This document shows positions 10,803-38,861 of a stretch of 64,000 nucleotides of DNA, piece after piece. The first letter of the stretch is position 1, and the number at the start of each line of letters is the position of its first letter. The notes below the pieces were generated by a model, which worked only from the letters and a program-made list of their open reading frames with translations, made no database searches and was not told the DNA's origin. Position numbers and translations under genes: made by a program. The stretch is taken from assembly GCA_025517465.1 (NCBI GenBank), contig JAOPKE010000001.1:868001-932000 (forward strand), in the 5' to 3' direction. This DNA is from Halobacteria archaeon HArc-gm2. GTDB lineage: Archaea > Halobacteriota > Halobacteria > Halobacteriales > Haloarculaceae.

Positions 10803-10885
10803 GGTGGGGTGGCAGAGCGGCCCATTGCGCCTGCCTTGAAAGCAGGTGGCGTTATGCCTCCTGGGTTCAAATCCCAGCCCCACCG
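10803..10885 (+). tRNA. tRNA-Ser (anticodon UGA)
   Basis: The 83-base cloverleaf has acceptor GGTGGGG/CCCCACC with discriminator G, D-stem GCA/TGC, anticodon stem CCTGC/GCAGG with loop CTTGAAA (anticodon TGA), a long variable arm, and T-arm CTGGG-TTCAAAT-CCCAG. The 5' 44 bases repeat at 3330, so this gene is a hybrid: its 5' half and promoter come from one side of the recombination and its 3' half from the other. Confidence 0.95.
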
Positions 10886-11276
10886 CATTTTGCTGCGAAC
10901 AGTTCGTGAGCAGCAAATGCAACAAGCTGGGATTTGAATCCTGCCAGTTGCAGCGCTCGAACGAAGTGAGAGCGACCATCTGGGTCCGGTTCAAATCCCA
11001 GCCCCACCGCTTCTGAACGAACGGACGTGAGTGAAGAGCGGTGCAACTGGATTTGAACCCTGGAAGTCGCAGCCCCGGAATGGCCGAACAGAGTGAGGCC
11101 ACAGCCCGGAACGTCTTCCTCCGGTTCAAATCCCAGCCCCACCGTTTTACTCCGAGCGACTACGCGAGGAGCAAACGGTATCCGCTGGGATTTGAAGTAG
11201 ACGAGTCACAGCCCGCACAGGGAGTGAAGCGACCGAGCAGGAATGTCTCGGCGTGGTTCAAATCCCAGCCCCACCG
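10864..11276 (+). repeat. Tandem tRNA-Ser 3'-tail array with palindromic units
   Basis: The last 22 bases of tRNA-Ser (from GGTTCAAATC to CCCCACCG) recur identically at 10988-11009, 11123-11144 and 11255-11276, spaced 124, 135 and 132 bases. After the first three copies a hairpin follows and then an inverted T-arm copy (GCTGGGATTTGAATCC at 10925, CTGGATTTGAACC near 11047, GCTGGGATTTGAA near 11183), so each unit is one long imperfect palindrome. Between units lie further hairpins, such as CGCTC/GAGCG at 10954-10974 and TGGCC/GGCCA at 11081-11101, each with an 11-base GA...GA loop. Confidence 0.85.
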
Positions 11277-17840: not shown

Positions 17841-18511
17841 GGTGATACCATCGGACGGGGGTGGAAAGGGGTTTTCGGCGACTCAGCAAGGACCGGCGTG
17901 GCGCGTGCGGTCGTGCGTGCCGGAACGCCAGTGGAGGCCGCACGTCGAATCCGCGCGAGGGATGAGGAGCGGAACGAAGTGAGCACCGCAATCGGCTGGG
18001 GAGGTGCGTGGCCGTCGTGCGGTGCTGTCCTGGTGTCCTCGTGAGCGAAGCGAACGAGGGCTCAGGAGAGTTTGCTCTCCTGGTGGACTGAAAGGGCGAG
18101 GTCCGCTCGCGCCATCGGGCATGCGCTCGTCGGCAGGGTTCCCGCGAACGGAGTGAGCGGGATGTCGACGAGCGTGCGCGAGCGGGCCGAGGGCTTTCTT
18201 TTCCCGTCAGGTCCCCAGTAGTGGGGAGTACCGTCTCGAAAGCCCTCGGTCCGCCAGGAAACGAACTATCGCAACCACGAGCCTCCCCAGCCGATTCCCT
18301 CAGTCACTCCGTTCCTTCGGTCATCCACCGAAAGACTCGCTGCGCTCGCGAAACCCTCGCGGGTTCGCCGTGCGGTCCTCGCTGTCGCTCGGACACGCAC
18401 GAACGCACGCGCCGACCCGAAGGACTCATCGTCCAGATACAGACGCCACTGCTGGAGTCCGTTCGTCACCGAAAGATGAAAACCGCGAAAACCGGATTCG
18501 AGACCGGAGCG
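17841..18511. repeat. Non-coding inverted-repeat region
   Basis: No gene is supported. Nested perfect or near-perfect inverted repeats fill the region: AATCGGCTGGGGAGG (17990-18004) with its complement at 18282-18296; a 17-bp pair with one mismatch, GCGGGCCGAGGGCTTTC (18182-18198) and 18238-18254. Hairpins CCTCGT/ACGAGG (18037-18059) and CCCGC/GCGGG (18141-18161) have 11-base loops GAGCGAAGCGA and GAACGGAGTGA. TGAAAGGGCGAGG at 18089 and the CCGAGGGCTTT motif recur at 57.3-57.7 kb. Confidence 0.7.
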
Positions 18512-33398: not shown

Positions 33399-34745
33399 CT
33401 ACTCGGTGAGCTTGATCATGTTCCCGTTCTGGGTCACGTGGAGGTCCCGGCCGAGTTCGTAGCCCTGACTGGAACAGAGGTCCACGTAGGGCGCGAACCC
33501 TTTCATGTCCTGGTGGGCCGGGATGATGTTCTGGGGCTGGAGCGCGTCGATCATCTCGTAGTGACCCTCCTCGCGGAGGTGGCCCGAGACGTGGATGTCG
33601 TCGTAGATGCGGGCGCCCTGCATGCCCAGCAGTTTCTCGGACTGGTAGCGCTGGCCCTCGTTCGTCGGCTCCGGGATGACCCGGGCGGAGAAGATGACCT
33701 TGTCACCGTTCTCGAGTTCGTACGGCGTCTCGCCCCGTCCCATCCGGGTGAGCATGGCGCGCGGTTCCCCCTGGTGGCCGGTGACGATGGGCAGGAAGTT
33801 CTCCTTGCCGTCGTTCATGATCCGCTTGAACGTCCGGTCGACGGACTTCCGGTGACCGTACATTCCCAGGTCCTCCGGGAAGTCGACGAAGTCGAGGCGC
33901 TCCGCGGTACCGGAGTACTTCTCCATCGACCGACCGAGGAGCACGGGCTGGCGGCCGATGTCGTCGGCGAACTCGACGAGCGACTTCACACGAGCGATGT
34001 GGGAGGAGAACGTGGTGGCGACGATGCCGCCGTCGTAGTCCTCGACGCTCGTCATGACGTCCTTGAGGTGGCGACGCGCGACGGACTCGGAGGGCGTGCG
34101 GCCCTTCCGGCCGGCGTTGGTACAGTCCTCGATGTAACAGAGGACGCCCTCGCCCTCGCGACCGATCTCGCGGAAGCGTTTCATGTCGATGGGGTCGCCG
34201 ATGACCGGCGTGTGGTCCATGCGCTTGTCCAGCCCGTAGACGACGGCGCCTTCGGGCGTGTGGAGGACCGGGTTGATCGCGTCGATGATCGAGTGCGTGA
34301 CGTTGACGAACTCCAGTTCGGTCCGCTCGCCGATCTGCATCGTCTCGCCGGCGGACATCTTCTGGAGGTCGTTCTGGACGCCGAACTTCTCCTCGCCCTT
34401 GATCTGCTGTTTGACGAGTTCGATGGTGAACGGCGTCGCGACGATGGGCGCGTCGTAGCGGTGTGCCAGCTTGGAGATGGCGCCGATGTGGTCCAGGTGA
34501 CCGTGGGTCGGCACGATGGCCTTGACGTCGCCCTCCAGTTCGGACATGACGCGGTCGTCCGGGATGGCGCCCATGTCGATGAGGTCGAGCGAGTGCATTC
34601 GCTCGGTCTCGACGTTGTCGTGAATCAGTACCTTCGAGAGGTTCAGGCCCATGTCGAAGACGACCACGTCGTCTCCGGCACGGACTGCCGTCATCTGTCG
34701 GCCGACCTCTTCGTACCCGCCGATTGTTGCGATTTCGACTTCCAT
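33399..34745 (-). CDS. rnj: Archaeal RNase J (beta-CASP nuclease)
   Basis: 448 residues. Metallo-beta-lactamase signature THGHLDHIG near residue 75 and later beta-CASP blocks ([58 protein letters not shown]) define the 5'-3' exoribonuclease of euryarchaea. In this superoperon it lies between the isoprenoid genes and idsA, a known archaeal arrangement. Upstream, 34746-35476 holds the hairpin array rather than a gene. Confidence 0.92.
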
Positions 34746-35109
34746 GGTTGTAGGTCCGAGGGAAGCCGTCCGCCTGCGGGGGAGTCCGACGCTACGACAG
34801 TGGACGGGTCGGTGCGCGTTGCACGCGACGCGTCCACCGAACTCGGAGGCCGTCCGGGTCGACCCGTAGCCCCCGAGTCGTTCGCTTGGGCCGGGGATCC
34901 GGTGATCCCCGTGACGGAAGCGTCCGTCGTCCGCCGGCCGTCTCCCGCATCCACGGACGGCCGTGCGCTCGGTTACGAGGGGCTACGTGGCCGGGTGATA
35001 AAAACGCTGGTGGTTCCGGCGACGGGGAGTTCCACCGGCCAGTAGCCGCCGTATTCGACGGGACAGATTCGGAAAACAGCGAACCGTCGTGTGGTTCAGT
35101 CGCCGCCCG
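34746..35109. other. Gap upstream of rnj without a gene
   Basis: 364 bases between the rnj start and the hairpin array. No gene is supported on either strand; it probably contains the rnj promoter. Confidence 0.45.
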
Positions 35110-35476
35110 ATAGTGGTGGTTGTAAGCCCGTACCGGCGTCCACGCGAACGAAGTGAGCGTGGGCTCGTTGGACGAGAGGAACGAGTCCAACGGCGTCCAG
35201 CCGAACTGCGTGAGGCCGGGCTCGATAGACGAACGGAGTGAGTCTATCGGCGTCCTGTCGAGCGTAGCGAGACAGGGCTCATCGGATGAGCAGCGCGAAT
35301 CCGATGGCGTCCCGACGAGCATGGCGAGTCGGGGCCCGGGAGACGAGTGCAGCGAGTCTCCCGGCGTCCACGGGAACGGAGTGAGCGTGGGCTCGATAGA
35401 CGAACGGAGTGAGTCTATCGGCGTTCGACGTGGCCGGTGCCGGCGAACGTCGGTAAAAAGTTACAACCACCACTAT
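35110..35476. repeat. Tandem array of ten GA-loop hairpins inside a 16-bp inverted repeat
   Basis: The outer ends are a perfect inverted repeat, ATAGTGGTGGTTGTAA at 35110-35125 and its complement at 35461-35476. Inside are ten hairpins with 5-7 bp stems, each with an 11-base apical segment: 35141-35161, 35167-35191, 35198-35218, 35224-35248, 35254-35276, 35281-35305, 35311-35333, 35338-35362, 35368-35390, 35395-35419. Two contain one mismatch. Many units alternate with GGCTC and GGCGTC linkers. All loops start with GA and end with GA; stems differ from unit to unit but remain complementary. Confidence 0.9.
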
Positions 35477-36753
35477 GAGAGGCGGTCACCGAGCGGGTCG
35501 TCGTCGCCATCGACTTCGAAGGACGACACGCCCTCGTCGGCGAGGGTCAGGTCGTCGTCTTCGTCGTCTTCGTCGTCTTCGGGAGTGGCGCCGTCGTCGT
35601 CGCCGGTTTCGTCCGGCTCCGGGTCGGTAAAGTTCGGTTCGTCCTGCGCGAACAGATCGTCCGAGCCGTCGTCGTCAGGCAGGTCGACAGCGTCCGTCGA
35701 CTCGCTGGCGGCGGGTTCGGTCTGGCCGACGTCCGTCGTCTCGCGTTCCGTCTCGATGCCGTTTCCGTCGGAGGCGCTCTGGACGTCGTCCCACGTCCTG
35801 ACGGCGTCGTCGGAGCTAGAGTCGGCGTCCACCGCACCGACTGGCTCGTCCGTAGCAGTCTCGGCCCTCCTGTCGGGAGCCGGGTCCTCCGCCGGCTCGG
35901 ACGACTGTTCGAACTCGGCCGGGTCCGGCGGCGTCCACTCGGCGCGGTCCTGATCCGCCGTCTCCGACACGGCGTCGCCGGTATCGTCGCCGGGGCTCCC
36001 AGAGTCAGTGGACGCCGCCGGTTCCTCGACGTCTCCGGCCTGGGTGCCGGTGGCGTACTTCGAGTCCGTCCAGTCGTCGGCGGCCGAGGATTCGTCCACG
36101 AAGTCGTCGGCGTAGGGATGGCTCTCGACGTCAGTCCGGGACGGCGACGGGCCGGCACCGTCCATCGCCTGTTGGTCCGGTCCCTCGGCACCGGACGGCG
36201 GTCCCCCGTCGGGCTGTCCGGCAGACGGCGCCGGCTCGCTCGTCGGTGGTTCCGGTGGGTCCCGGTGGGCCGCGTCGTCTACCGGGCGATCCGTCGCCGG
36301 TTCCCCGGTCACGGTCCCCGTGGTGTCTTCGCCGTCGAGCGGCGTTTCGTCCGCCTCGGGGGCCGCCGCGGGCTGGTCGGCGTCGGGAGACTCGTCGTCC
36401 GCCGCCGCTTCGTCCGCGTCGACGTCGCCCTCGCCCTCGATCGAGGTGTCAGTCACCGTCGTTCCAGTCGTCGACGCGACGGCGACGGCCGCCGCGTCCG
36501 CGAGCAGTTTATGCACAAGGCCGAACAGCCCCGACAGGCCGACGACGACACCGAGCAATGCGAGTAGCGCACCCGCGATGGCGCTTCCCGTCGCGAGAGA
36601 CGCGAGTGACGGAGCCGCCAGATTCAGGCCGCCGGTCGCCGCGACCGCGACGCCGGCGACGACGAAAACGCCGGCCACCACGACGACGGCGACGAGATAT
36701 CCCAGAAATTTGGCCCCGTACTTGAACACGCCGGGGAGCCCTACAGCTACCAT
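35473..36753 (-). CDS. Membrane protein with long acidic disordered tail
   Basis: About 426 residues. Two or three hydrophobic helices fill residues 10-100 (YLVAVVVVAGVFVVAGVAVA, GALLALLGVVVGLSGLFGLVHKLLAD); the remaining 320 are a low-complexity acidic region of Asp, Glu, Pro, Thr, Ser. The nearest family cannot be named. An in-frame start at 36771 is six residues longer. The stop codon lies within the right arm of the hairpin-array inverted repeat. Sits between ipk and rnj in the superoperon. Confidence 0.6.
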   Translation of the reverse strand: MVAVGLPGVFKYGAKFLGYLVAVVVVAGVFVVAGVAVAATGGLNLAAPSLASLATGSAIAGALLALLGVVVGLSGLFGLVHKLLADAAAVAVASTTGTTVTDTSIEGEGDVDADEAAADDESPDADQPAAAPEADETPLDGEDTTGTVTGEPATDRPVDDAAHRDPPEPPTSEPAPSAGQPDGGPPSGAEGPDQQAMDGAGPSPSRTDVESHPYADDFVDESSAADDWTDSKYATGTQAGDVEEPAASTDSGSPGDDTGDAVSETADQDRAEWTPPDPAEFEQSSEPAEDPAPDRRAETATDEPVGAVDADSSSDDAVRTWDDVQSASDGNGIETERETTDVGQTEPAASESTDAVDLPDDDGSDDLFAQDEPNFTDPEPDETGDDDGATPEDDEDDEDDDLTLADEGVSSFEVDGDDDPLGDRLS

Positions 36754-36805
36754 GTCTGTGACAATCATCAACGTCGGTCAAATATGTTACGCCCGCTCGA
36801 CCGAC

Positions 36806-38559: not shown

Positions 38560-38600
38560 GGGCGGTGCTGTGTTGCGAGGGGGTTAGGCGTTTTCGGGTG

Positions 38601-38829
38601 CAGGTCGGGGCGCGAGCGAAGCGAGCGGCCCGACGTTTGAGCGAACGGCGACCAGCGGGAGCCGTGAGCAGGTCGGGCTCGAACGAAGTGAGAGGCCGAC
38701 AAATGTGCGAGCGGGAGCCGAGCGGGCGCGAAGCGTCCGCGTTGCTCGAACGGGGAGGAACGACCCGTGAGAGCGACCGAAGGGAGCGACACGCGAGCAG
38801 GTCGGCGCCGAGCGCAGCGAGGGGGCGAC
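38601..38829. repeat. Three GA-loop hairpin units between P450 and mvk
   Basis: Three units begin CAGGTCGG at 38601, 38669 and 38798. Their stems (about 9-10 bp, one to two mismatches) enclose loops GAGCGAAGCGA (38614-38624), GAACGAAGTGA (38681-38691) and GAGCGCAGCGA (38810-38820). The first and third are followed by CGACGTTTGA, the second by a close variant. Between units two and three a shorter hairpin occurs (ACGGG-GAGGAACGA-CCCGT). Same family as the 35 kb array. Confidence 0.8.
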
Positions 38830-38861
38830 GTTTGATTGAACGGCAACACGTCGAACTACCC

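Follow-up and report, generated by a model that had tools for sequence, protein, structure and literature searches.

The hairpin array between positions 35110 and 35476 of the analysed window (the whole stretch of 64,000 nucleotides from Halobacteria archaeon HArc-gm2) probably represents two nested mobile elements, i.e. a recently spread outer MITE and, within it, a hairpin-pair module that assembles itself into arrays at CGGYG. The outer element, with its 15-bp ends (TAGTGGTGGTTGTAA) and 3-bp target duplication, is a MITE. The first-pass annotation had treated array and inverted repeat as a single cassette, a reading that was abandoned, as the array was shown to be a second, separately occurring module that sits in the middle of the 82-bp MITE.

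Anatomy of the window element and its locus

As originally described, the array was shown to contain ten hairpins, all of which carry an 11-base loop of the form GA-N7-GA. Loop positions 3 and 9 are complementary in 10/10 hairpins (A-T in five, G-C in five), positions 4 and 8 form C-G in eight, T.G in one and A.A in one, and seven of the ten loops have GNA in the middle. The stems are paired, with a single mismatch in two of them (hairpins 3 and 9), and A-type stems also hold a T.G wobble (GTCC/GGGC) that had previously been overlooked. Consecutive loops are spaced 28 and 29 nt apart by turns, indicating that the real period is 57 nt, or two hairpins. Each 57-nt unit is composed of a type A hairpin (GTCC-stem-loop-stem-GGGCTC) followed by a type B hairpin (stem-loop-stem-GGCG). 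Five such units, all on the + strand, were delineated: unit 1 at 35139-35195 (hairpin A loop 35146-35156, hairpin B loop 35174-35184, ending in GGCG), unit 2 at 35196-35252 (loops starting at 35203 and 35231), unit 3 at 35253-35309 (35260 and 35288), unit 4 at 35310-35366 (35317 and 35345) and unit 5 at 35367-35423 (35374 and 35402).

The 16-bp inverted-repeat arms reported around the array match exactly; as the 3-bp target duplication accounts for their outermost bases, the element itself spans 35111-35475 and has 15-bp ends. Based on inverted-repeat matches, the left terminal repeat was placed at 35111-35125 (+) and the right one at 35461-35475 (-). The target duplication, assigned from those of the family and from the empty site CGAGAG in G006, is represented by CGA on the left (35108-35110) and TGA on the right (35476-35478), the two copies differing by one mismatch. 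According to an alignment of ~50 copies, the left half of the 82-bp core occupies 35126-35138 (+) and ends in the presumed landing site CGGCG, while the right half (35424-35460, +) comprises a TTCGACG hairpin and an A-rich stretch (CTTTTT on the - strand); the five units are placed exactly between CGGCG and TTCGACG.

The number of hairpins far exceeds chance expectation, in line with the shuffle check that had been proposed: eight window hairpins have a perfect stem of >=6, compared with a mean of 0.004 (maximum 1) among 2000 shuffles of the 367 bases of the array in which dinucleotide composition was kept. Folding z-scores of the array were -6.0 for DNA (+ strand), -10.4 for RNA (+) and -9.4 for RNA (-). 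Rfam covariance models returned nothing at E<=1 for positions 34700-35900.

The position occupied by the window MITE is uninterrupted (CGAGAG) in G006, a near relative, and the element is also lacking from this interval in the remaining genus members compared. Loops missing from homologous intervals had been named in advance as evidence against the array, and they are indeed missing at this locus; this reflects the recent insertion in the window, as the motif itself is present elsewhere. The insertion also modified the adjoining predicted membrane-protein gene (35473-36771, -), whose TAG stop codon is supplied by the MITE and whose last three codons were replaced, such that the protein ends in ...DRLS, compared with ...DRLSGGD in the relative that lacks the insertion. 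A further rnj gene, with 86% identity, is located at G000:C13:180655-181992 and is also found in G006 and G004.

Several other positions within the window contain related hairpins. GA-loop hairpins also follow one another at 38560-38850, between a P450 gene and a mevalonate kinase gene; this run has linkers of its own (AGGTCGG...GCCGAC) and no MITE ends. In the region 17950-18350, an A-type module (GTCCTCGTGAGCGAAGCGAACGAGGGCTC) at 18035-18063 precedes a second hairpin and GGTGGACTGAAAGGGCGAGG, and this downstream context recurs in other genera (L304, L311, L392).

The MITE family and the hairpin-pair module

The inverted repeat bounding the array had been likened to the ends of a miniature mobile element, and this proposal was corroborated by the identification of ~50 copies in the genome. 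Matches to TAGTGGTGGTTGTAA in HArc-gm2 number 53 in forward and 55 in reverse orientation (<=2 mismatches), nearly all of them forming inward-facing pairs. The commonest copy measures 82 bp and represents one long palindrome (28 copies), while other lengths are 139, 196, 310 and 367 bp, equal to 82+57n, besides variants of 60-109 and 167 bp. Copies hold zero to five hairpin-pair units, the window copy being the 82-bp palindrome with five. With sizes of 42-367 bp, the copies are non-coding and too small for a transposase gene. Their 3-bp target duplication is TCA/TGA within the target CTSAG, and both of its copies are identical in 40/49 cases. At least 29 of 49 MITE copies adjoin a gene, predicted by composition only, whose in-frame stop is the TGA of the duplication.

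G006 also harbours array forms of the MITE (137, 250/251 and 364 bp), and only 4 of 49 sites are common to the two genomes, indicative of recent movement. No transposase for either the MITE or the inner module emerged from a search with PF01609, which identified two genes, neither of which has TAGTGGTGGTTGTAA ends, and a search for the inverted repeat in 242 genomes of the class returned almost only single matches outside the genus. A 947-bp TIR-like pair in G006 was dismissed as the parent transposon, as it encloses a signal-peptidase-like gene and no transposase. The T-run of the MITE was likewise rejected as a terminator, because orientation relative to the abutting gene is mixed. Another type of MITE, 106-118 bp long, has the same ends and an unrelated interior (L021, L023 and L037 in G000; L158, L161 and L169 in G006). 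In addition, a dispersed repeat of ~470 bp (G000:C1:300481-300950; L202:481-950) is present in ~40 copies in HArc-gm2 and G006, and none was seen in the five other genus members searched.

The inner module has no common inverted ends, and its two hairpins are located near its ends. Arrays or pairs without MITE ends were also found in Halorientalis pallida and Haloarchaeobius iranensis, and one such array in HArc-gm2 (C1:304652) and its ortholog in G006 differ by precisely one 57-nt unit, a difference that could reflect loss by recombination instead of insertion. A contig search with the exact array signature yielded mostly Nocardia matches, which were taken as a conserved coding coincidence. 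A different hairpin-pair family (GTCCGAGAGAGC..GCTCTCTCG..ATCACGAAA..TTTCG) was observed in two genera (L303, and L369 at ~1700-1760); the pair in L369 apparently truncates a tnpB gene at its 3' end.

The co-variation of stems and loop pairs, first noticed in the window, was shown by a Halobacteria-wide pattern search to extend far beyond this locus. The GA-loop motif is present in 145/145 haloarchaeal genomes counted, and in almost every one of them GARCGNAGYGA is more frequent than its reversed control, with an excess of ~2-fold in most genomes and ~4-fold in HArc-gm2 (619 compared with 149); in G006, GAACGNAGTGA was found 197 times and its control once. Among 102 loops of this motif in a 464-kb sample, 38% are flanked by >=4 perfect pairs; the corresponding figures are 0/20 for control motifs and 0.9% for the remaining GA-N7-GA loops. 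Genome-wide figures derive from pattern counts and from this sample, which, having been chosen around motif matches, inflates motif density but not the stem test. Furthermore, the pattern GTCC-N4-GANCNNNGNGA-N4-GGGCTC, which places no constraint on stem or loop pairs, matches 141/391 Halobacteria genomes, with three control matches in all.

In the 93 distinct modules among the matches listed, 334 of 372 free stem pairs are Watson-Crick, compared with 157 after shuffling, and loop positions 3 and 9 are paired in 84/93 modules, compared with 48; these counts are inflated by shared ancestry, yet the variety of stems is plain, with 24 different perfect stems, the conserved parts being GTCC, GGGCTC and the GA loop. 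Mismatches on the GA strand are more often G.T/T.G than A.C/C.A (22 compared with 9), and the T.G pair is retained in 22/25 modules of the own genus, which suggests that folding of the GA strand, as either DNA or RNA, probably matters. With regard to the fold suggested by the first-pass annotation (stem, tandem G.A pairs, two further pairs and a GNA triloop), its paired parts agree with the covariation counts, while the sheared geometry of the G.A pairs is putative. Literature searches with the MITE end or loop sequences returned nothing relevant, and the hairpin repeat is described nowhere in the literature searched.

Insertion sites, proposed mechanism and alternative explanations

Filled and empty sites of the module were identified in tnpB genes (IS200/IS605). 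Four of these, from Halovenus salina, Halalkaliarchaeum, a Natrialbaceae archaeon and G188, contain an in-frame module of 48 or 54 bp at one site just 5' of the RuvC-I motif, while six other, related tnpB genes are without a module at that site. The clearest copy, when aligned, exhibits an 8-12-bp direct repeat on both flanks. In G188, the module has CTAYCGGCGTCC at each side and is bounded by CTATCGGCGTCC and CTACCGGCGTCC, whereas the empty site in Haloarcula sinaiiensis contains a single CTATCGGCGTCC; comparison of the two identifies the array linker CGGCGTCC as the repeated target.

Modules were also found to be associated with tRNA genes: 17 of 30 module loci in other genera, several of them from the same genus, have a tRNA gene within 1.5 kb, compared with 0/44 other loci. 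Five modules at tRNA-Gly are flanked by an exact 9-bp repeat (GCGCCGGTG), and weaker repeats occur at Thr and Glu. Across 70 modules, the flanking repeat scored a mean of 6.34 of 9, modestly above the 5.75 obtained by permutation, indicating that most copies show just the CGGYG core. As the exact 9-bp repeats are all located at tRNA-Gly, and as a single insertion may underlie all four tnpB copies, few independent duplications are represented. In hairpin B, the 3' arm is the target copy and the 5' arm is complementary to it; this match of the 5' arm to the target is not accounted for by simple transposition. Repeated tRNA 3' ends with GA-loop hairpins between them were also observed at window positions 10850-11200 and in L081 (G000:C1:330400-331400), in the latter with a period of 259 bp.

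These observations are consistent with the following model of nested mobility. The outer element is a non-autonomous MITE, presumably moved in trans by a DDE transposase, that spread recently in HArc-gm2 and in the sister species, where most copies landed on TGA stop codons. The inner element is a module of ~45-50 nt, consisting of hairpin A (TCC-stem-GA..GA-stem-GGGCTC) and hairpin B (stem-loop-stem with GGYG at its end); it would insert next to CGGYG, with its target left as a direct repeat of 8-12 bp. As the end of the module is the very sequence beside which it inserts, each insertion would regenerate the target, so that exact 57-nt units would accumulate head to tail, either by serial insertion or by exchange of modules. 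The MITE's own palindromic centre contains CGGCG and would have served as a landing pad, the window copy having received five modules. Stems vary freely yet remain paired, which suggests that the mobile unit is most likely recognised by its hairpin fold and GA/GNA loop, be it as single-stranded DNA, cruciform or RNA.

Alternatively, a single hairpin pair within the MITE may have been duplicated locally in tandem, so that the window array grew where it now lies. The regular 57-nt spacing would fit such growth, but adjacent same-type units are only 63% alike, compared with 68% between units of different arrays, and identical hairpins turn up in many arrays and in both species, rendering this origin highly improbable. 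The same recurrence of identical hairpins is expected if the modules are not mobile at all and if units in polyploid haloarchaea are copied, reshuffled and lost through homologous recombination and through template switching driven by microhomology at CGGCGTCC. Such a process would also explain the exact 57-nt differences, and the inverted target copies beside the target (the B arm matches tRNA 5' ends) resemble fold-back synthesis. However, the clean in-frame tnpB insertion with a duplicated target, as well as the occurrence at unrelated sites in 141/391 genomes, is more easily explained by an insertion reaction, and this possibility is considered a serious but unlikely one. Less likely still is an origin of the modules from IS200/IS605 elements of which only the ends remain (PATEs), with a Y1 transposase moving them. 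In size and in having two hairpins, the modules match Haloquadratum PATEs (PMC3119063), yet the latter lack a target duplication (PMC3119063), whereas the tnpB and tRNA cases display 8-12-bp repeats; moreover, no hairpin of the A/B type was found at the ends of ISNma12-like elements, and the hairpins around these IS605 genes are without the GTCC/GGGCTC/GA-loop signature.

A functional RNA, with the hairpins acting as 3'-UTR stabilisers, terminators or tRNA leaders, appears about as improbable as PATE ancestry. The wobble excess and retained T.G pair noted above agree with such a role, as do the RNA folding z-score of -10, the mostly sense direction of modules near tRNA genes and the intergenic location of the majority of hairpins, many of them between convergent genes. 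Conversely, the GA strand of the window array is antisense to both flanking genes, which makes the suggested mRNA role in the window operon unlikely, and the interval is empty in G006 and the other genus members. Orientations are also mixed elsewhere: MITEs lie in either orientation relative to the host gene, and hairpins beside tandem genes are sense and antisense about equally. Outside coding sequence, the hairpins prefer convergent gene gaps and avoid divergent ones; this placement, combined with the mixed orientation, fits tolerated mobile DNA, presumably without a host role, better than an mRNA element. A replication-strand bias of the hairpins was considered and discarded (runs test on G006, p=0.88).

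The model of nested MITE and module may be taken further, albeit with considerable doubt, to a ~50-bp mobile element defined by shape and not by sequence. A protein would recognise two GA/GNA hairpins and insert the module by CGGYG, stems would be free to drift if they remain paired, and arrays would assemble themselves because the module's own end is its target, and in this way the element would have come to populate transposons, tnpB genes and the borders of tRNA genes throughout Halobacteria. Should the hairpin pair be mobile, it would be among the smallest transposing units, a module regenerating its own target would explain ordered hairpin arrays, and the stems would serve as a natural record of covariation from which to read what an enzyme that recognises structure tolerates. 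Filled and empty sites and a defined anatomy are now on hand for a hairpin repeat. Stem co-variation alone is no proof of a conserved functional RNA, as mobile DNA seems here to retain structure from copy to copy.

Comparison with known systems

Similar to the haloarchaeal MITEs (ISH2, MITEHsal and the Haloquadratum MITEs; Halobacterium MITEs have also been described, PMC10264941), the outer element is short, non-coding, bounded by TIRs and a target duplication and presumably moved in trans, but it differs from them in its varying number of internal 57-nt units and its location mostly at TGA stops. With the SMRs of Haloquadratum walsbyi it shares a size of ~80-110 bp, prominent inverted ends and nesting with mobile elements (PMC3119063); however, SMRs make no target duplication (PMC3119063), whereas the outer element makes one of 3 bp.

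The inner module resembles the Haloquadratum PATEs, which are non-coding, shrink to ~52 bp and possess two near-terminal palindromes, no inverted ends and no target duplication (PMC3119063), yet it differs from these in the 8-12-bp direct repeats that flank it in clear cases. REP, REPIN and BIME sequences are likewise minute, mostly intergenic and paired, sometimes form ordered tandem arrays and exhibit compensatory hairpin changes (PMC3116915, PMC2817692, PMC8266576). In contrast, REP sequences are conserved and tandem REPIN units nearly identical, whereas module stems vary widely and neighbouring units are dissimilar; unlike in REPINs, it is the loops and linkers of the modules that are conserved, and their hairpins all point in the same direction. 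The conserved palindrome with a GTAG/CGTC-type tag that characterizes REPs is absent from the inner module; lacking this feature and, owing to its flanking repeats, one PATE feature (no duplication), the module was placed under neither. Its loop shares the core RCGNAGY, closed by C-G, with the d(GCGAAGC) GNA mini-hairpin, although the latter is a biophysical motif and not a genetic element, and the fold of the module is predicted from sequence. Overall, the outer element displays the terminal inverted repeats, the target duplication and the short, non-coding body of a MITE, and MITEs, PATEs, SMRs and REP/REPIN sequences represent the nearest kinds among known elements.
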